From Candidatus Sericytochromatia bacterium (GTDB taxonomy: Bacteria; Cyanobacteriota; Sericytochromatia; S15B-MN24; JAQBPE01): a DNA stretch of 64,000 nt. Shown one piece after another: positions 52,682 through 63,514 of the stretch; position 1 is the stretch's first letter; the number at the start of each line of letters is the position of its first letter. The position numbers and the translations under genes were made by a program. The notes under the pieces were generated by a model, which saw only the letters and a program-made list of their open reading frames with translations, did not search any database and had not been told where the DNA came from. The stretch is from assembly GCA_035285325.1 (NCBI GenBank), contig JAYKJB010000057.1:1-64000 (forward strand), in the 5' to 3' direction.

Positions 52682-53440
52682 GTGCGAAGCAAAAAGCAAC
52701 TGAAGGCCAGGACTTCCGCCATGGCGATCGCCTGTCTGCTGGCGGGTTGCGGCATTCAGCCTTTTGCGCCCACCACGGGTGACTACGGCTACGGCTCGGA
52801 TCCCTACGGCGGGGGCTACGGCTCCGACCCCTACAGCGGCGGCTACGGCTCGGACCCGTACGGCGGCGGCTACGGCTCATCCCCCTCGGGCGGCGGCTAC
52901 GGTTCCGATCCCTACAGTGGCGGCGGTTTCGGTGGGGGGAGCTTCACGTCCCCCGGTGGCAACTACGGGGGATCCTTCGGCACGGTGCCGACCCCCGCTC
53001 CCATCACGGGAAAATTGCAGGTGAGTCGCCTCAACAAGAACAGCAAGGGGGTTCTGCTCTGGAAAAAACTGACGGTCTCCGGCCAGATCACCAATCCCTC
53101 TCAGGGCGTCCTGTCCGGTGAACTGCAGATCAGCTTCACCAAGGGTGGAAAGGTGGTCGAAACCCAGACCGAATTCGTGACCGATCTGGCCCCCGGGCAG
53201 GCACAAGGGTTCACGGTGAGTTCCAAAAGGTCGGCCGATGACGTGCAGATCGGCATCACCTCACTGCCCGGCCAGTTGCCCGGCTCCAACTACACAGGAG
53301 GCGGCTACGGTTCAGGCTATGGAAACGGCTCCGGCACGGGCTACAGCGGTGGCTACGGCGCCGGAACGGGCTACGGCGGTGGCTACGGCTCCGGAACATC
53401 GGGCTATCCCGGGGGAAGTGGCTATGGCACGCCCTACTGA
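52682..53440 (+). CDS. Gly/Tyr-rich repeat lipoprotein, first of a tandem pair
   Basis: A 252-residue exported protein. The lipobox is CLLAGCG. Residues 30-105 are repeats of a YGSDPYGGG-like nine-residue unit, residues about 105-190 form a globular domain (KGVLLWKKLTVSGQIT through SADDVQIGIT), and a second Gly/Tyr/Ser-rich low-complexity tail ends the protein. Start is GTG with a GGCGGAGG site. The globular domain is also found in the next gene. Similar repeats occur in adhesive or surface proteins, but function is unknown here. The neighbouring gene overlaps it by about 17 bases. Confidence 0.75.
   Translation: MRSKKQLKARTSAMAIACLLAGCGIQPFAPTTGDYGYGSDPYGGGYGSDPYSGGYGSDPYGGGYGSSPSGGGYGSDPYSGGGFGGGSFTSPGGNYGGSFGTVPTPAPITGKLQVSRLNKNSKGVLLWKKLTVSGQITNPSQGVLSGELQISFTKGGKVVETQTEFVTDLAPGQAQGFTVSSKRSADDVQIGITSLPGQLPGSNYTGGGYGSGYGNGSGTGYSGGYGAGTGYGGGYGSGTSGYPGGSGYGTPY
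52787..52921 (+). repeat. Five 27-base tandem repeats
   Basis: Units begin at 52787, 52814, 52841, 52868 and 52895, each starting GGCTACGGCTC or a close variant and encoding Y-G-S-D-P-Y-x-G-G. The strict 27-base register in both DNA and protein points to recent expansion or to slippage. Confidence 0.8.
53303..53424 (+). repeat. Degenerate GGCTACGG-type repeat tail
   Basis: Irregular GGC-TAC-GGC and GGC-TCC-GGA codon blocks encode Gly/Tyr/Ser/Thr in the C-terminal tail of the lipoprotein. They resemble the 27-base repeat at the front of the gene but have lost a constant register. Confidence 0.6.
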
Positions 53441-54011
53441 TGCTGCTCGGGCCAGGCTGGTTCGCTTCACGCTCTCGGGTGTCGCCTGGCTGAGCCTGGT
53501 CGGCTGCGGTCGGGTCGCCCCGGTCGGGGGCCTGCCCGTGGCCCCCATGCCTCCCGCCACGCCTTTGGAACAACCAGCGCTGACGCCGCTGGAACAGCCC
53601 ATCGCGCCAGGTCTGAATGTGCCTGCGTTCGTGGGGCCCGGGGGTGCCGCGCTCCCCGTGAGCACTCAACCCGGCGCCGGGACTGGTTCGTCCCAGATTG
53701 GCGGGCAGACACCCACGGCCGGCTGTGACCCCCTGAATGGCTGTAACATCCACGCCCTGCTCGTGGTGGGCGGAATTCAAAAGGCCAAGATGGGCTTCCT
53801 GTGGCGCAAGTTGCGGGTCAAGGCCACCATCTCCAACCGTGGAGCTCAGGCCCTCGACGGAGAAGCCATCGTTCGCTTCAAGAAGGGGGGACAGGTGGTC
53901 CAAAGTGAGTATTTCCCGTTCGCCGTGCTGGCCCCTGGGCAAAGCAAGGCGTTCGAAGCGGTCTCCGCCGTGGCCGCCGACGACGTGGAAGTGACCAGCC
54001 GCGCGCTGTGA
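53424..54011 (+). CDS. Second tandem lipoprotein sharing the globular domain
   Basis: A 195-residue exported protein with lipobox SLVGCG and a Pro-rich linker (residues 30-110). Residues about 115-195 align with the first lipoprotein: its LLWKKLTVSGQIT matches FLWRKLRVKATIS, its SGELQISFTKGGKVVETQTE matches DGEAIVRFKKGGQVVQSEYF, and LAPGQAQGF matches LAPGQSKAF. So the pair are diverged paralogues with one shared C-terminal domain. The start ATG lies inside the last codons of the first gene. No Gly/Tyr repeats here; two Cys in CDPLNGCN may form a disulfide. Confidence 0.72.
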   Translation: MARPTDAARARLVRFTLSGVAWLSLVGCGRVAPVGGLPVAPMPPATPLEQPALTPLEQPIAPGLNVPAFVGPGGAALPVSTQPGAGTGSSQIGGQTPTAGCDPLNGCNIHALLVVGGIQKAKMGFLWRKLRVKATISNRGAQALDGEAIVRFKKGGQVVQSEYFPFAVLAPGQSKAFEAVSAVAADDVEVTSRAL

Positions 54012-55988: not shown

Positions 55989-58271
55989 TCAGCCCAGCGA
56001 GGCCTGCAAACGCGGCATGGGCTGCCCCCGCAGGGCGCGGCGAAAACGCAGCCCATTCAGGGCCTCCTGGTAGCTCTGGAGGTCCACCAAGGCGATGTCT
56101 TCGGGGGGGGCGGCCAGCAGTTGCCAGTGAGTCCCCTGGCGGAGCAAGAGGCCGGCCTCTTCAAAGATCCGCAGGGCGTCCAGGCAGGCTGACCCCAGAC
56201 TGACTTGCGCCTTCTGAAGGGCCTGACGCAGCGTTCCTTCGCGGTGGCGCGCCAGCTGCCCCCAGAGCGAACTGAGGGCCTGAGGCGTGGGAAGTTCCTC
56301 ACCAGCAGCCCCTTCACAGGTCTGAGTTGGCCAGGCGAGCGTGACCTGAGCGGCCTGAGCCAACAACTGCTGCCAGGTCTGCTCGTCATGAGGCGGGTCG
56401 CAAAACCAGAGATGAGCGCCAGCCGGCACCGAGGGGGCCAGAGGGTCCACCCAAAGGCCGGCGGTCGGCGGATCGATCGCGTACACGTGGGCGTCGCGCG
56501 GGGGCTCGGCGGGCTGACCCCGGCGGTCGTTCCAGACCGGTGCGGTAGCACTCGCCAAGGCAGCGGCGATGCTGGGTTCAACGGCGGAGGCAGGGGCCAA
56601 GCGGTCGGCGATGAACTGAATGCGGGTTTGCCCCTGAAAGGTATTCCAGCTGGGCCGGTAAGTGAAGCGGATCCAGTCCCCGAGGCTGTCCGCCATGTCG
56701 GCCTTGCCCCAGGCAATCACTTCAGCGAGCGAAACCCCGTCGTCGACCTTGAGAAACAGATGATTCTTCACCACCCGACGCCCCACCACCCGCGCGCGCA
56801 ACAGGCCAAACACCGGTGACGGGTTGCGTTGCCCGAACGGTTCCAGGCGATCCAGCGCCTCGAGCAGGGCGGCATCAGCCTCTGCGAAGGGCAGTTCGGC
56901 ATCCAACGCGATCACATCAGCGGGCCGGTTCCAGCCCACCTCACGTACGTAGGCATTCAACGCCCGCCGCACCAGAGGAATGGCCGATTCCTCCGCTGCG
57001 CAGCCAGCCGCCCCTGCGTGGCCCCCGAACCCGACCAGATGAGCCCGGGCATGGTGTAGGGCATCGTAGAGGTGGAGGCCGTCCGGGCTGCGCCCCGAGG
57101 CCTTCCAGAGCCCGCCGGGATGCCCCGAGAAGAGCAGCACGGGACAGCGGTAGCGGTCCTTGATGCGACCCGCGATGATGCCGGTGATCCCGTGATGAAA
57201 GCCCTCGTCCGCCAGCACGATGAAGGGTTCGGACTCGAGGTCCCAGTCCGCATCAAGGCGCTGAAAGATGTCGGATTGCAAGTCGGCCGACATGGTCCGC
57301 CGCTCCCGGTTGATGCGGTCCAACACCTCAGCGTGAACGGCCGCTTGCTCGTGGTCGTTGGTGGTGAGCAACTCGAAGCCGACGCGCGGCGTTTCCAATC
57401 GGCCGGCCGCATTGAGCCGGGGCACCAGCTGGAAGGCCAGATCCTCCGCCCGCACGGAGGTCAACTGAGTTCCGGCCGTTTTCGCAAGCGCCGCGATGCC
57501 CGGAAAGCGGCTTTTGCCCTCACGAAAGCGCGCCAAACCGGCCCAGACCAGCGCCCGGTTGGGACCACTGAGCGAGACGACATCCCCGACCGTCCCGATG
57601 CTGACGAAATCCAGGAAGTGGGCGATGCGGTCGTTGAAACCGCCCTCCAGCGCGATCACGAACAGCAACGCCACGCCGACGCCGGCCAGGTCCTTCAGGT
57701 GGGGAAATTCCAGGGCAGGATGCACGATCGCGGTCACATCAGGCAGGACCTCAGGCGGCTGATGGTGGTCCGTGACCACGATCTCAACCCCAAGCTTGCG
57801 GGCGGTTTCAGCGGCCGCGATGGCGGAGATCCCGTTGTCGCAGGTGAGGATCAGGCGCACGCCGGAAGCCGCAATGCGCTCCACCGCCGCGGGCGTCACG
57901 CCGTAGCCATCCTTGAAACGATCCGGCAGGTAGGCCTCACAGTTGGCCTTCAAGCCCCGTTTGAGATAGCGGTACAGCAGGCTGGTGCTGGTCACGCCAT
58001 CGCAGTCGTAGTCGCCATAAATGACGAAGGGTTCCTGCTCGGCGACGGCTCGGCGGATCCGGGCGACGGCCCGGGCCATGCCATCCGTTTCAAGCGGACT
58101 CTGCAGCCAATCCAGGCGATCCCGCGTCGACAAGAAATCAGCCGCCACCTTCGGCGTCCGATAGCCCCTCAACCACAGCAAGCGAGCCACAGGCAAGGGC
58201 AGGCCCAGGGCCGTGGCAATCGCCGCGACCTCGGGAGCCTGCGCCGGCTTCAAGCTCCAGATCTGACTCAC
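55989..58271 (-). CDS. recJ: Single-stranded-DNA exonuclease RecJ
   Basis: A 760-residue DHH-family 5'-3' exonuclease for recombination and mismatch repair. The catalytic motifs are YGDYDCDGVTSTSLL (DHH motif I), VTDHHQP (motif III), SIGTVGDVV and the DHHA1 region with GFGGHAGAAGCA. A long C-terminal extension beyond the usual core carries an OB-fold and a further domain of about 190 residues rich in Trp and Pro. GTG start 58271 with GGGGGAA. It follows the helicase-nuclease genes by about 50 bases and probably belongs to the same repair unit. Confidence 0.92.
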   Translation of the reverse strand: MSQIWSLKPAQAPEVAAIATALGLPLPVARLLWLRGYRTPKVAADFLSTRDRLDWLQSPLETDGMARAVARIRRAVAEQEPFVIYGDYDCDGVTSTSLLYRYLKRGLKANCEAYLPDRFKDGYGVTPAAVERIAASGVRLILTCDNGISAIAAAETARKLGVEIVVTDHHQPPEVLPDVTAIVHPALEFPHLKDLAGVGVALLFVIALEGGFNDRIAHFLDFVSIGTVGDVVSLSGPNRALVWAGLARFREGKSRFPGIAALAKTAGTQLTSVRAEDLAFQLVPRLNAAGRLETPRVGFELLTTNDHEQAAVHAEVLDRINRERRTMSADLQSDIFQRLDADWDLESEPFIVLADEGFHHGITGIIAGRIKDRYRCPVLLFSGHPGGLWKASGRSPDGLHLYDALHHARAHLVGFGGHAGAAGCAAEESAIPLVRRALNAYVREVGWNRPADVIALDAELPFAEADAALLEALDRLEPFGQRNPSPVFGLLRARVVGRRVVKNHLFLKVDDGVSLAEVIAWGKADMADSLGDWIRFTYRPSWNTFQGQTRIQFIADRLAPASAVEPSIAAALASATAPVWNDRRGQPAEPPRDAHVYAIDPPTAGLWVDPLAPSVPAGAHLWFCDPPHDEQTWQQLLAQAAQVTLAWPTQTCEGAAGEELPTPQALSSLWGQLARHREGTLRQALQKAQVSLGSACLDALRIFEEAGLLLRQGTHWQLLAAPPEDIALVDLQSYQEALNGLRFRRALRGQPMPRLQASLG

Positions 58272-58320: not shown

Positions 58321-59160
58321 TCAAGGCGCTTCCGCGGCGCGAAGCCCCGCGTCGGAGGGGGGCAAGAAGACCGGAGGACTTGGCCAAACCAGCATTTCGG
58401 AAGGTTCGAAAGGGCCTGCGTTGCACAACGTGTGGTAAGCGCAGGGTGGACAGCGCGACGGGACCCTCGGAAAGGCCGCGTCATCGTGAACCCGAGGATC
58501 AAATGGAGCGCAGGCCTGCCTGGCCAAAGCGGTGAGACGCTGACGCGTCGCCTCGTGCCGCGACGCGGAGTGAGGAATCACGACCGCCTCCCCGGTGTCG
58601 ACCAGCCAGAACACCATCTCGACCGATTCAGGCGCGATGGGCGAGCCCCCTGACAGGACCTGGGCAGCCTCCGTCAACACGAAGGGATACAGGCGGGCTT
58701 GCCAACCGCGACGCAGCGTCTCCCCGGAGGGATGGCCGGTCTTCCAATCCAGAATGCGCCAGCGTCCCGCGTGGGCCACGATCCGGTCGTAGCGGGCGAC
58801 GAAGGGGACTTCAGCCACTTGCAAGTGCAGGCTCTGCTCGGTCCAGACCTCGGCCTCAAGGGGCGGAGAGAAGTGTTCTGACGTGGCAAACCGAGCCCAC
58901 ATCTGAGTCAGGCCGGGATGCAGCCCCTCCCAGGCCTCCAGCAAGGGGGCGAGGGGCAGACCACAGGCGTGTTGCTGAACCAGCCGGTGGAAGACGGAGC
59001 CCAGGCGCGCGCCATCGTCTTCCCCCTGCGGGTGCTGGCCGGCCCGAGCAGGCCAGTAGGCCTGCAACTTGTAACGCAGGGCAAAGTAGCGGGGACAGCC
59101 GTCCGCCAGGGCGTCCAGCGCGGCACTGCTCAGCCTGGGACGGGGCTCGACCTGAGTCAT
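58321..59160 (-). CDS. PD-(D/E)XK nuclease with Fe-S cysteines, AddB/RecB-nuclease type
   Basis: A 279-residue free-standing nuclease of the RecB-like family. Active-site motifs are intact: the His of GSVFHRLV, D in VARYDRIV, the D-x-K of RILDWKTGHPS and Q-x-x-x-Y in QARLYPFV. Cys22 and a C-terminal CPPCAYHTLC reproduce the C...CX2CX5C pattern of the AddB iron-sulfur clamp. In AddAB this module is fused to the helicase; here it is a separate gene whose ATG overlaps the UvrD gene stop. It should supply the cutting activity of the operon's complex. Confidence 0.9.
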   Translation of the reverse strand: MTQVEPRPRLSSAALDALADGCPRYFALRYKLQAYWPARAGQHPQGEDDGARLGSVFHRLVQQHACGLPLAPLLEAWEGLHPGLTQMWARFATSEHFSPPLEAEVWTEQSLHLQVAEVPFVARYDRIVAHAGRWRILDWKTGHPSGETLRRGWQARLYPFVLTEAAQVLSGGSPIAPESVEMVFWLVDTGEAVVIPHSASRHEATRQRLTALARQACAPFDPRVHDDAAFPRVPSRCPPCAYHTLCNAGPFEPSEMLVWPSPPVFLPPSDAGLRAAEAP

Positions 59161-61328
59161 GGCGTGACGCGCTCACAGAGAGAGGCCAGTTGGGCCACCT
59201 GGGGGGGCAAGGTTTCACTGGTGCCGGCACCAGACAGGTGAAGCGCGCGCTCGGCCCGCGTCATGCCGACGTACAACAACCGCAGCTTTTCAGCCACCAG
59301 CAGCCGCTGAGCGGCCGCCCGGGCGGCAGCCAGATCGAACGGCGCCCCCGGCGGGGCACGCAAGGCTTGCTCAAGGCAGAAGGCCGCCTGGTCACGAAAC
59401 GAGACCTGGTCGGGGTCCCAAGGAAACATGTAGGCGCTGGCGAGGCCAGGGATCCACACCGCATCGTATTCCAGGCCCTTCGAGGCGTGCAAGGTCAGCA
59501 CGCTCAGCGTACCAGGGGTGGCCTCACGCGTGTCGGCCGGCGTGGGCACCAGGTCCCGATGGTCCTCGGTGTTTTCCGCGAGTGTCCTCACCTCGTCTGC
59601 CAGACGCCGCAGGGGGTCCAACTCAATGGTCGGGTCGGAGGCCGCTTTCCGCTGGGCGATCACGGCCGCCTTGGCCGCCACGGCGATCGCCTGAGGATCG
59701 TCGATCAGGGTCAGGGCCACGCTCGGAAAGAGTTCCCCGGGAGGCAGATGCCGCACCCGCAGCAAGGCGCGCAACCCCCGACAGAGCGAGAGCAGGGCCA
59801 GGTAGTCTGCAGCAGGAAAGTCTTCCGGGCGATGCGGTGGCAGGTCCGCCAGGGGAAACAGCAGCGAATCGGAGGGATGGCGCGCAAGGAACTGCCGGAG
59901 CGCCCGTGGATTTTGCCAGGGCGTGCGGCAAAGCTGGGCCCACTCCTCCACCAGGGGGCGCCAGGACGCGGCCGGCTCCTCCAGCGGCAACGACAGAAAC
60001 GTCAGCACGTGGGCCAGAAACCTGAGACACTGGCGCTGTGACGGGCCCTGGCTGACGCCTTGCTGCAGCGGAATGCCCAGTTGGGTGGCGCGTTGCGCAT
60101 AGGCCATCCGAAGCTTGTGAGACGTCACCAGCACCGCTGCCCGGGCCGTCGGATGGGCTCGCAAGAACGCCCGCACGGCTGTCAGCACGCCCAACTCTTC
60201 CTGTGCCGCGGCGTCGTCGCGCCTGGCCCCCTCGTAAAAGGTCCAGGTGATCGGCGCAAGCAGAGAGGGATTCGGCTTTCCGGCCGTGGCCGGCAGGATC
60301 GGTTGTCCGGTGAAGGCCTCCCTCACCACGGGATCAGGATGATGAGCGGTGAACGCCACCAGCGCATTGGCCATGGCCAGAACGGGCAGCGCGCTGCGGC
60401 TCGATTCCGCCATGGGCATGTGGCGCCCACTGGTCTCACAAGCCTGACAAAACGCCCGAAAGTACCGGGGAGAGTTGTGCGTGAAGGAAGCCATGATCGC
60501 CTGATTGGTGTCCCCCACACGGACCAGGTTGCCACTGCCGCCCAGGGCAGGTTCGGTCAGCCAGCGGATCAGGGCCTGCTGGTCGGGCGTTGAATCCTGC
60601 GCCTCGTCCTCGAGGACGAAGCGAATACGACGCTGATGATAGGCCCGATGGTCGTCTCGAGTGGCCAGAATGGCGTTCGCTTCCCGGATCAGATCATCAT
60701 AGTCATAGGCCCCCGCCGCCTGTTGGCGTGCCAGGTAGCCGCGATACAAGGCCGGCAAGGCGGGGTGATGGTCAACCACAGCAACCTGAAAGTCGGCCTC
60801 GCTCAGGCGCGCTTGTTTGGCCTCCGCGATGGCCTTCTCCGCCAAGCGCAGCACCACCGCCTGCGGGTCCTCCCGCTCATCGCCACCGCCGTCGCGCTGC
60901 CCATACGCCTGCCACATCTGTTGATGAAGGGGGTCCTCCAACCATTCAAGCAGGGCCTCTTGCAGGTTCTTGCGCCGTTCCGCCTCGCTCCAAACCAGCA
61001 TTCCGGAGTCGCTGTCACCCGCCGCGCGCCGAATGACCGAGGACGCGAACCCGTGGATGGTCGTGGTTTGCAGACCGAATGCGGTCAACCCACGCGCTGC
61101 CAGGGTGCGCGTCAGCCGTTGCTTGAGGTTCAGCGCCGCACTGCGCATGTAGGTGAGAATCAGGATCTCAGCAGGGCGCACACCGAGGTCTTCGACCAGT
61201 CGCACGGCCAGCTGCTCCAGAATGAAGGTCTTGCCAGCCCCTGGCGCGGCGGAGATGGCCAGCTGTCCACCGGAATACGTCAGGATGGCCGCCTGAGCAG
61301 GGCGCAAGGTGACGGCGCCGGTGGTCAT
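59157..61328 (-). CDS. UvrD/Rep-type superfamily 1 helicase
   Basis: A 723-residue DNA translocase. Motif I AAPGAGKT (residues about 27-35), motif Ia LTYMRSAALNLKQRL, motif II VLEDEAQDSTPDQ, motif III VRVGDTNQAIM, motif V LTLHASKGLEYDAVWIPGL and motif VI LLYVGMTRAERAL are all intact, so it should hydrolyse ATP and move 3'-5'. No nuclease domain is fused. Overlaps of 4 bases with the degenerate helicase upstream and the nuclease downstream suggest a fixed-ratio complex. In the comparison with AddAB/RecBCD it takes the place of AddA/RecB. Confidence 0.93.
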   Translation of the reverse strand: MTTGAVTLRPAQAAILTYSGGQLAISAAPGAGKTFILEQLAVRLVEDLGVRPAEILILTYMRSAALNLKQRLTRTLAARGLTAFGLQTTTIHGFASSVIRRAAGDSDSGMLVWSEAERRKNLQEALLEWLEDPLHQQMWQAYGQRDGGGDEREDPQAVVLRLAEKAIAEAKQARLSEADFQVAVVDHHPALPALYRGYLARQQAAGAYDYDDLIREANAILATRDDHRAYHQRRIRFVLEDEAQDSTPDQQALIRWLTEPALGGSGNLVRVGDTNQAIMASFTHNSPRYFRAFCQACETSGRHMPMAESSRSALPVLAMANALVAFTAHHPDPVVREAFTGQPILPATAGKPNPSLLAPITWTFYEGARRDDAAAQEELGVLTAVRAFLRAHPTARAAVLVTSHKLRMAYAQRATQLGIPLQQGVSQGPSQRQCLRFLAHVLTFLSLPLEEPAASWRPLVEEWAQLCRTPWQNPRALRQFLARHPSDSLLFPLADLPPHRPEDFPAADYLALLSLCRGLRALLRVRHLPPGELFPSVALTLIDDPQAIAVAAKAAVIAQRKAASDPTIELDPLRRLADEVRTLAENTEDHRDLVPTPADTREATPGTLSVLTLHASKGLEYDAVWIPGLASAYMFPWDPDQVSFRDQAAFCLEQALRAPPGAPFDLAAARAAAQRLLVAEKLRLLYVGMTRAERALHLSGAGTSETLPPQVAQLASLCERVTP

Positions 61329-63514
61329 CGCCCAGCCTCCAGCACCTGTTGGGCCCCCAGCATCGACACCAGCAGGTTGGGCAGTTCCCCCTGTTGCTCG
61401 CGGCCCTCTTCATCCGTCAGGCAGGCGTGAACCCACAGGCAGGTTTCCACCTTCAAGCAACACGTCATCAGGACCCGCGCGAGCTTTTCCGAGGCGTCCA
61501 GGTGCTCCTCATCCAGCGTGTAGAGGCCGGGCGGACGCGCCAGCGAGAGGAGACGGGCATTGGTGAATTCACGCCGATCGGATTTCCACCAGCTCTCCGC
61601 TCCAAAGTCGAGTAAGAACAGATGGGAGAGGCGTTCCGCCGGCTCACTGAAGCCCTTTTCGGAGAGCTGACTGGCGGTGGCCAGCATGACGGCTCCACGG
61701 TGGGGCTCGCGCTGAAAAAACGGGCGCTCGGCCACCGGCTGGTCACGCAGGAAGGTCAGGAATCGAGCCCCCCAATCAGGCGGCGACTGGTGCAGGCGCG
61801 ACTCGATCTCACGAAAACGCGCCGCCAGCTCGATCAATTGCCCCATCTGGCTCACCTCTCGGGCCTGTTGTTCATCCAAGGGATCCGCCAGCGCCAGGAA
61901 CGGGGCCCACACCTGGGTAAAGGCTTCCCGCAGAACGCTTTCCGGGTCCGTTGCCAGCAGCGGCGTATCGACGAAACGATGGAGGCTGGCGTAGCGGGCC
62001 AGAGCCTGGTCGCTCAGCCCCGCCGTCAAGCCATCCGGCGGAACAAGCGCCCCATCCTGATAAAACTCCGCCTCGCGACGGGCCAGTTGCAGGGGATTGA
62101 GACCGGTCACCGCTTCCAGCAGTTCGATCACCTCGAAGCGCGAGGGCGCCGGCCCCCAATCGGGCTGCGCCAGACGCGCCAGGGTGAGCAGCAAACGCGG
62201 CGCACGGTGGTCGCTCAGCATGGTGGTCCCCGCGAAAACGTAGAGGGGATACCCCAGGCGCGCCAGACGCACCCGCAGGGAGAAAATCAACATGGGACTC
62301 AGGGCCGGCACGACCAGGGCAACCTGGTCAGGGGGCGTGTGCATCAGCACCTGGGCGAGATCCGCCGCGACGCGGTCCAGCATTTCCAGCGTGCCGCTGG
62401 CATCCAGCCGAAGCGCCAGCGCCCCGGACGGCAGGTGAACCGTCTGGAATCCACCGGTCAAGGCCGCGCCGAAGGCCCTGCCGAGCGGCGCCAGCGGGGG
62501 CTCTGCCGTCTCGATCGTCTCCACCTCCTCCGCCACCTCCCAGGCCCGCCAAGGCGCCGCGCCCACATATTCACGCAAGCCCCCGCGATACGTCCAAGCC
62601 GCCGTTCCGGCGGCCGGATCGGACTTGGCGCTGGCCTCGCACCGAACGCCCACGGCACTCCAGGCCACCACCATGTCGAGCCAGCGGTGCGCTGATTCGT
62701 CGATGTCTTCCACCAGGACCAAACTGGTATTCCGGCAGAAGTGTTGCTGGTAAGCGGGCGCCGGCCATAGACAGTGGGTGTAGACGGCCAGCGCCAGCGC
62801 GTGGTCAAAAATCCGGGCACGCAGCATGGCATCGACATAGATGGCGGCCAGATGCGCCACCCGTGGGGCCGCCTCGGCGGCCGCTTCGATCTGGCCCGCG
62901 TGAAGGCGGTGCGCCACTGCTGCCATCCAGGGCTGTAGCGTCTCAGCCGGGGACGGTCCCCGCGCGGCCCAGTCCGGGTCGAGGCCCCCACCACTCATCG
63001 GCGCATGGGGCGCCGCCTCAGGCGGCCCGAGCAAGGGAAGGCCGTGTTCGATCGCGCGCGCCACGACGTCCAGGACCTGCAAGCGCTGAAAGGTCAGCGC
63101 GGAGCGAGCCCCAGGGATCAGGCCCCCATCCTCTTCCTGCCAGGCAGCCAGGAACCGCCCCAGCAGATACTGGCTGAGATCGATCGCCACGAAGGACGGC
63201 TCGAGGCGATTGTGTGCCAAGCCGGCTGGAAAGCCGGTCCGCGCCAGGGCCTCCTCCACCAGGGGCCACCAGATGCGAAGTTCCTCCTGAAGCCAGGCCA
63301 GGGACGTGACCACCCGGCGGGCCCCGGTCGGCGCGCTCAGTTCGTCGAGAAAAGGCCGCCACGCGCCCCAAGTGGCCGTCAAAACCAGAATTCGGTCGCT
63401 CGGCAGGCCGCCCTCAATCGCCTCCCGATAAGCCTGGCGCAAACGCCCACGCAAGGCCTCTCCGGGATAGCTCGTGAACAGGCGACGAAGGCCGCCGGGT
63501 CGCTCCCGCGTCAA
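61325..63514 (-). CDS. Degenerate helicase subunit resembling AddB/RecC
   Basis: A 729-residue protein with the general shape of a SF1 helicase but no P-loop: where Walker A should be, the N-terminus reads TSYPGEALRGRLRQAY, lacking G-K-[TS]. A motif II-like LVLVEDIDESAHRWLDMV remains, as does a QVALVVPALSPMLIFSLRVRLARLGYPLYVFAG stretch like the second motor domain. It lacks its own nuclease motifs at the C-terminus. This fits the RecC/AddB role of a non-motor scaffold that binds DNA. Start TTG overlaps the permease stop as TTGA. Family-level assignment is inference from layout and gene order. Confidence 0.72.
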   Translation of the reverse strand: MTRERPGGLRRLFTSYPGEALRGRLRQAYREAIEGGLPSDRILVLTATWGAWRPFLDELSAPTGARRVVTSLAWLQEELRIWWPLVEEALARTGFPAGLAHNRLEPSFVAIDLSQYLLGRFLAAWQEEDGGLIPGARSALTFQRLQVLDVVARAIEHGLPLLGPPEAAPHAPMSGGGLDPDWAARGPSPAETLQPWMAAVAHRLHAGQIEAAAEAAPRVAHLAAIYVDAMLRARIFDHALALAVYTHCLWPAPAYQQHFCRNTSLVLVEDIDESAHRWLDMVVAWSAVGVRCEASAKSDPAAGTAAWTYRGGLREYVGAAPWRAWEVAEEVETIETAEPPLAPLGRAFGAALTGGFQTVHLPSGALALRLDASGTLEMLDRVAADLAQVLMHTPPDQVALVVPALSPMLIFSLRVRLARLGYPLYVFAGTTMLSDHRAPRLLLTLARLAQPDWGPAPSRFEVIELLEAVTGLNPLQLARREAEFYQDGALVPPDGLTAGLSDQALARYASLHRFVDTPLLATDPESVLREAFTQVWAPFLALADPLDEQQAREVSQMGQLIELAARFREIESRLHQSPPDWGARFLTFLRDQPVAERPFFQREPHRGAVMLATASQLSEKGFSEPAERLSHLFLLDFGAESWWKSDRREFTNARLLSLARPPGLYTLDEEHLDASEKLARVLMTCCLKVETCLWVHACLTDEEGREQQGELPNLLVSMLGAQQVLEAGR

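Follow-up and report, generated by a model that had tools for sequence, protein, structure and literature searches.

The window, by which we mean the whole 64,000-nucleotide stretch that was analysed, carries three tightly packed genes, here called D, U and N. A preliminary description of this DNA had reported three genes joined by 4-base overlaps into an operon, and the reading frames are indeed arranged in this way: all three lie on the minus strand, and the D/U and U/N junctions each consist of a 4-base ATGA overlap. The gene row also runs on into a recJ gene, which is probably in one transcription unit with N. D starts with a TTG codon that has AGGAGG ahead of it; here the gene shares four bases, at the stop codon, with the end of a gene for an amino-acid permease. 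The trio is thus flanked by the permease gene and recJ, and no RecD-like reading frame was found in the row. The features discussed below are as follows.

61325..63514, minus strand: D, 729 residues, predicted to be an inactive protein of SF1A helicase fold; corresponds to the N-terminal two-thirds of AddB
63443..63472, minus strand: lost Walker A site of D (SYPGEALRGR), placed by alignment
59157..61328, minus strand: U, 723 residues, SF1A helicase of UvrD type, complete in its motifs and lacking a nuclease domain
61227..61250, minus strand: Walker A of U, residues 27-34, read from the sequence and conserved in the homolog alignment
60594..60611, minus strand: motif II of U (EDEAQD), residues 240-245, read from the sequence and invariant in the homolog alignment
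58321..59160, minus strand: N, 279 residues, free-standing nuclease of the PD-(D/E)XK type with an Fe-S site of four cysteines; corresponds to the C-terminal AddB nuclease
59095..59097, minus strand: C22 of N, first Fe-S cysteine, invariant in the homolog alignment
58741..58788, minus strand: catalytic core of N, D125 ... D138-W-K140, with D125, D138 and K140 invariant
58423..58452, minus strand: C237-X2-C240-X5-C246 of N, with C237 invariant and C240 and C246 present in at least 90% of homologs
55989..58271, minus strand: recJ, RecJ-type 5'-3' single-strand DNA exonuclease, about 50 bases downstream of N

Elsewhere in the window, 52682-53440 encodes a protein rich in Gly, Tyr and Ser that has a lipoprotein-like start followed by numerous YGSDPYGGG-like repeats, and a second possible lipoprotein (53238-54011) overlaps or follows it.

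Relationships of the three proteins

D has no match in Pfam, NCBIfam or the PDB sequences (the sole NCBIfam line is an irrelevant model at 0.07), and its homologs from crown cyanobacteria likewise give nothing above cut-off. Its AlphaFold (AF2) model, built on 36 aligned sequences, has a pLDDT of 87.4 and a pTM of 0.88, and the top 50 Foldseek matches to this model are all SF1A helicases, among them UvrD (E 1e-18), AddB (2e-17), AdnB (4e-17), AdnA (7e-15) and RecB (3e-14). In profile comparison with hhalign, residues 15-666 of D are collinear with AddB 47-704 (P 1.3e-10, 589 columns). The D profile also aligns with U almost from end to end (P 2.5e-18) and with UvrD up to column 530 only (P 3e-11), while RecC, taken as a control protein of similar size, gives no match (hhalign probability 1.6%), so that a RecC ancestry for D can be set aside. 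On the strength of these fold matches and profile alignments, D of the window is predicted to be a motor-dead SF1A helicase, with either AddB or a U duplicate as its ancestor. It is nearer to U than to AddB and about equally near AddB and UvrD, and going by these alignments it may have arisen as a copy of U that later degraded, instead of being a relic of AddB.

The preliminary description had D lacking the Walker A lysine, which is correct for the window, where SYPGEALRGR stands at the P-loop, but is not a trait of the family: 20 of 20 aligned crown sequences retain a GKT/GKS P-loop (GxxRSGKT). By lineage, the site is lost in the window's order and half lost in the family f9, discussed below. 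One crown genome, G041, is S. elongatus-like (its KaiB and CpcB match S. elongatus sequences at 98% and 99%). Its D (G041:C1:119077-121062) has GRT at the P-loop, with arginine in place of lysine, probably an independent loss of this motor residue.

U carries Walker A (APGAGKT), DEAQD, GDTNQ, TLHASKG and LLYVGMTRA. Across 19 homologs the core residues of these motifs vary little or not at all. With every SF1A motif present, its description as a complete UvrD-type helicase stands. Pfam assigns it UvrD-helicase (4e-36) and UvrD_C (8e-10), and hhalign places it nearest UvrD (1e-68), followed by AddA/RecB (8e-46). The protein stops after motif VI, all of its Pfam domains are of UvrD/AAA type, and no nuclease domain was found in either D or U.

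N belongs to PF12705 (5e-23) and has a RecB-type active site (D125, D138-W-K140, Q154xxxY158). It had been described as a PD-(D/E)XK nuclease with CX2CX5C; these residues are conserved, although a fourth Fe-S ligand, C22, had been overlooked, so that there are four cysteines in all. Across 19 homologs, including those from genomes with N at other loci, each catalytic and cysteine residue is either invariant or kept in at least 90% of the sequences. N aligns with AddB 817-1170 (hhalign P 2.6e-6) over a span that takes in all four Fe-S cysteines, and its profile also finds the nucleases of AdnB (E 2.5e-7) and AdnA (0.003). The AF2 model (pLDDT 86.6) retrieves ACE1, an Argonaute-associated Cas4, first in Foldseek, followed by AdnA, AddA, Cas4, Dna2 and RecB. 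Most of the crown N proteins (L116-L125 and N of G041) end in a short conserved tail, such as NIQEVTL, EIPEVSL, EIQEIPL or DEIPVVEL; this tail is missing from N of the window and, from its sequence, could be a docking peptide.

Among the known end-processing enzymes, the closest likeness is to AddAB (RexAB; Bacillota and Proteobacteria), which combines one SF1A motor, a motor-dead SF1A subunit and an Fe-S PD-(D/E)XK nuclease of the form Cys ... CX2CX5C. D and N map to two successive parts of AddB: the N-terminal SF1 fold of AddB without motor function has its counterpart in D, with its fold and missing Walker A, and the AddB nuclease signature in C22, C237, C240, C246, D125, D138, K140, Q154 and Y158 of N. 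Because of this succession, D and N together resemble an AddB cut in two, and U resembles an AddA without its nuclease. Yet AddB carries the helicase fold and the Fe-S nuclease on one chain where D and N are separate reading frames, and the AddA motor bears a C-terminal nuclease that U does not have, leaving one nuclease in the trio against two in AddAB. D, moreover, has only about 700 residues; the cut-off of the curated AddB model is not reached among the matches listed, and none of the listed matches to that model (TIGR02773) falls at the D or N locus. Since its nuclease is fused to neither helicase, the trio lies outside AddAB as defined.

AdnAB of the Actinomycetota, compared here through PDB and Foldseek matches, shares the use of two paralogous UvrD-like subunits (D and AdnA superpose with a Foldseek TM of 0.58), but each of its subunits has a fused nuclease of its own, whereas the single nuclease of the trio is unfused. 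RecBCD would do the same job, but D has no similarity to RecC, the operon contains no RecD, and the motor U has no nuclease. The earlier proposal of an AddAB/RecBCD-like system therefore holds in its first half, as AddAB/AdnAB-like with D and N aligning to AddB, and fails in its second. The concern that D might belong to some unrelated family has been answered by its SF1A helicase fold and by a profile that aligns with AddB and not with RecC.

Occurrence and arrangement in the Cyanobacteriota

We surveyed 194 Cyanobacteriota genomes, counting U at E <= 1e-90. D was found in 174 genomes, N in 172 and U in 167; the complete trio occurs in 165 of the 194, and 19 lack all three. The conserved trio that the preliminary description proposed to look for across the phylum is thus there. 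Its conservation and that of its motifs are far above chance, and this spread across the phylum rules out a chance origin. A phage or plasmid origin was rejected as well, as searches of viral contigs and plasmids found no relative of D. A first contig scan queried with D of the window returned no relatives, and in the named genome collection 485 stretches hold a relative of crown D, the best 80 of the 485 being from Nostocales and their kin.

Joint absence of D, U and N occurs in at least six unrelated places: the family f28 (12 genomes), f25, f26 and the single genomes G004, G114 and G150. The f28 genomes, at 1.6-3 Mb and with KaiB, are presumably marine Synechococcus and Prochlorococcus. Twelve of the 19 trio-less genomes have RecC and one has AddB. 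True RecC is present in 17 genomes, comprising all 12 of f28 and G010-G014, and true AddB in G004, G005, G007 and G008. RecC or AddB was found in 13 of 20 genomes without D versus 8 of 174 with it (Fisher P 2e-10, the related genomes not being independent of one another). The replacement is not strict, as AddB stands alongside D in G005, G007 and G008, and RecC alongside D or a divergent D in G010-G014; an AddB system and a D-type gene can coexist. Seven D-less genomes have neither RecC nor AddB, and in six near-complete genomes (G076, G095 and G105 of f25, G084 of f26, G114 and G150) none of D, U, N, RecC and AddB was found. At six loci from class-level relatives (L168-L173; f6 and f7) the D-like protein is divergent (E 1e-16 to 1e-66), and RecC is also present in four of the six; U and N were not found within the stretch examined around the divergent gene. 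On a Rossellomorea plasmid (CP128836.1; L149:301-3797), an annotated AddB is followed by two small PD-(D/E)XK reading frames, and this addB is apparently broken or split.

The window's own genome, 98.6% complete, contains neither RecC nor AddB, as had been expected if the trio stands in for them. The RecC model TIGR01450 has no true match there, and the marginal model matches are to ordinary UvrD only; from the lack of AddB and RecC we infer that AddA/RecB is missing too. A published survey found recBCD to be mainly confined to marine Prochlorococcus and Synechococcus, with most non-marine cyanobacteria lacking it, and Synechocystis PCC 6803 and Anabaena PCC 7120 without recB (of the E. coli type) and recC; the same survey allows for further repair genes yet to be identified (PMC5101192). 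S. elongatus has been said in passing to encode AddAB (PMC10269773).

The D-U-N order is kept in the window's order (G001, G002, G003, G006 and G009), and in G001, G003 and G006 the row likewise continues into recJ. In the AT-rich, 1.6-2.3 Mb genomes of f9, which we take to be Gastranaerophilales, D and U form one chain of about 1,290 residues, mostly 1,270-1,310 (L035 and L115, for example); in about 60 genomes N overlaps the end of this fusion or begins no more than about 100 bases from it, whereas at least eight have N elsewhere. The crown cyanobacteria have D, U and N at separate, distant loci. The suggestion that each activity sits on its own chain is therefore right for the window and for the crown, but not for f9.

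A recJ paralog lies beside or near N at 5 of the 11 crown N loci examined. The paralog is long; the stretches concerned are L116:3974-7196, L117:3893-7833, L118:427-4574, L120:876-4680 and L124:665-4717, and in G020 a GNAT-like acetyltransferase gene sits between N and the paralog. In a midpoint-rooted tree with long branches, the window's recJ and this N-linked paralog fall into different clades. We found no support for identifying the former with RecJcy, the cyanobacterial paralog, as it groups with the other crown RecJ and not with the N-linked one. Since the two do not form one clade, it would seem that the module has twice acquired a RecJ. The proximity of N and recJ suggests a shared pathway and no more.

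A proposed DNA-end-processing enzyme

We consider it likely that D, U and N make up a DNA-end-processing helicase-nuclease of the AddAB/AdnAB kind, in which AddB would be split into a dead helicase (D) and an Fe-S nuclease (N), and AddA cut down to a motor (U). Complex and activity are predicted from sequence, and the trio very probably works like AddAB. The complex would bind a double-strand DNA end, and U would haul one strand in the 3'-5' direction using ATP. D, its motor lost, would hold and steer the DNA, possibly sensing a Chi-like signal, and N would cut the strand as it emerges. RecJ would assist in clearing away the 5' strand, so that a 3' tail is exposed to RecA. Linear DNA entering the cell would be broken down by this same activity. 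The kinship of the parts in fold and profile, the conserved active sites, the co-occurrence, the gene row and the natural D-U fusion are computed observations; the physical complex, its polarity and product, the loading of RecA and the role of D are what we infer.

For an AddAB-like complex speak the fold of D, the collinear match of D and N to AddB, the conserved sites, the D-U-N order, the f9 fusion, the joint presence or absence of the three genes, the tendency of D to be missing where RecC or AddB occurs, the lack of recBCD in most non-marine cyanobacteria and the uptake phenotypes described below. Against it count the closer affinity of D to U than to AddB, the genomes in which D coexists with AddB or RecC, the seven D-less genomes with neither, and the scattered crown loci, which are unusual for a stable complex. 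We lean, with less assurance, towards a wider reading, in which the trio would be the ancestral three-piece AddAB-type resection enzyme of the Cyanobacteriota (dead helicase, motor and free Fe-S nuclease), kept despite scattering in the oxygenic lineages, fused in a different way in a non-photosynthetic lineage and replaced by RecBCD in the marine picocyanobacteria; it would then be responsible in model cyanobacteria for resecting breaks and for keeping transformation low.

In the literature searched, whose coverage left most subscription journals outside, we found no description of the trio. It is a candidate for the missing break-processing enzyme of model cyanobacteria, with three genes to delete. 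If the proposal is right, it would account for the initiation of recombination in polyploid cyanobacteria, would bear on the transformation efficiency of engineering strains, and would mean that the AddB nuclease is able to work as a free subunit. D is in any case a near-universal protein of a major phylum that, having no entry in Pfam or NCBIfam, is nameless in both.

Some phenotypes reported for model organisms touch on these genes. RSF1010 plasmid maintenance and natural transformation in S. elongatus PCC 7942 improve when ago, cas4, uvrD, recJcy, rpoD2 or Synpcc7942_0992 is lost; Synpcc7942_0992 is a PD-(D/E)XK gene, and the uvrD in question is distinct from pcrA (PMC10653904). A Thermus thermophilus strain without addAB and ppol transforms about 100x better (PMC13140390), a parallel that would follow if both enzymes consume the ends of DNA entering the cell. 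In about 1.6 Mb read of G041, one U ortholog and one PcrA-like protein are the sole strong matches, so by elimination S. elongatus uvrD is probably U. An equation of N with Synpcc7942_0992 found no support, N of G041 lying far from the position expected by locus-number order. Gene order around landmarks in G041 is not collinear with that order, and given both observations Synpcc7942_0992 may be D or another protein.

The shared phenotype of the S. elongatus ago, cas4, uvrD, recJcy and PD-(D/E)XK genes could also be read as the mark of a defence or DNA-uptake-limiting module of Cas4/Gabija-like type, which would degrade foreign DNA or make Argonaute guides and have no part in housekeeping resection. 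We regard this as unlikely. The best structural match of N is indeed cyanobacterial ACE1 (PDB 9iac and 9iab; E 1e-7, similar length), but the two share only about 18% identity with a profile match mainly in the C-terminal half, and we take them to be paralogous families. GajB models are matched by U, but in Gabija the UvrD-like GajB sits beside GajA, an OLD/TOPRIM nuclease, and PADLOC finds no GajA among D, U and N. Other bacteria have a UvrD-type helicase beside a Cas4-like (pfam12705) nuclease, fused or in operons, with a suggested role in repair or defence; these pairs occur mostly in Clostridiales operons or as fused proteins in restriction loci, and no D subunit is mentioned in the passages on these pairs (PMC5704561). 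The near-universal presence of the trio and its joint absence where RecBCD occurs are typical of a housekeeping function and not of a mobile defence island. The uptake phenotype itself does not tell the two readings apart, because enzymes of the AddAB/RecBCD type degrade foreign DNA too.

It is also rather improbable, to our minds, that the three proteins share a gene row and a pathway and otherwise work separately. U would then be an accessory helicase of UvrD type, N a Cas4/Exo5-like exonuclease that acts together with RecJ at gaps, and D a regulator, and they would form no AddAB-like complex. The separate crown loci, the greater nearness of U to UvrD than to AddA/RecB and the presence of recJ, instead of D or U, near N in five crown genomes would suit such an arrangement; the fusion of D to U in f9, the joint losses of all three genes and the mapping of D and N onto the single polypeptide AddB argue for the AddAB-like complex instead. 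That D is a decayed, functionless UvrD copy kept by accident is scarcely credible despite the loss of Walker A in the window's order and its half loss in f9, given the occurrence of D in 174 genomes, residues that are invariant or nearly so across its homologs, a confidently predicted fold and a reading frame unbroken in nearly all listed matches.
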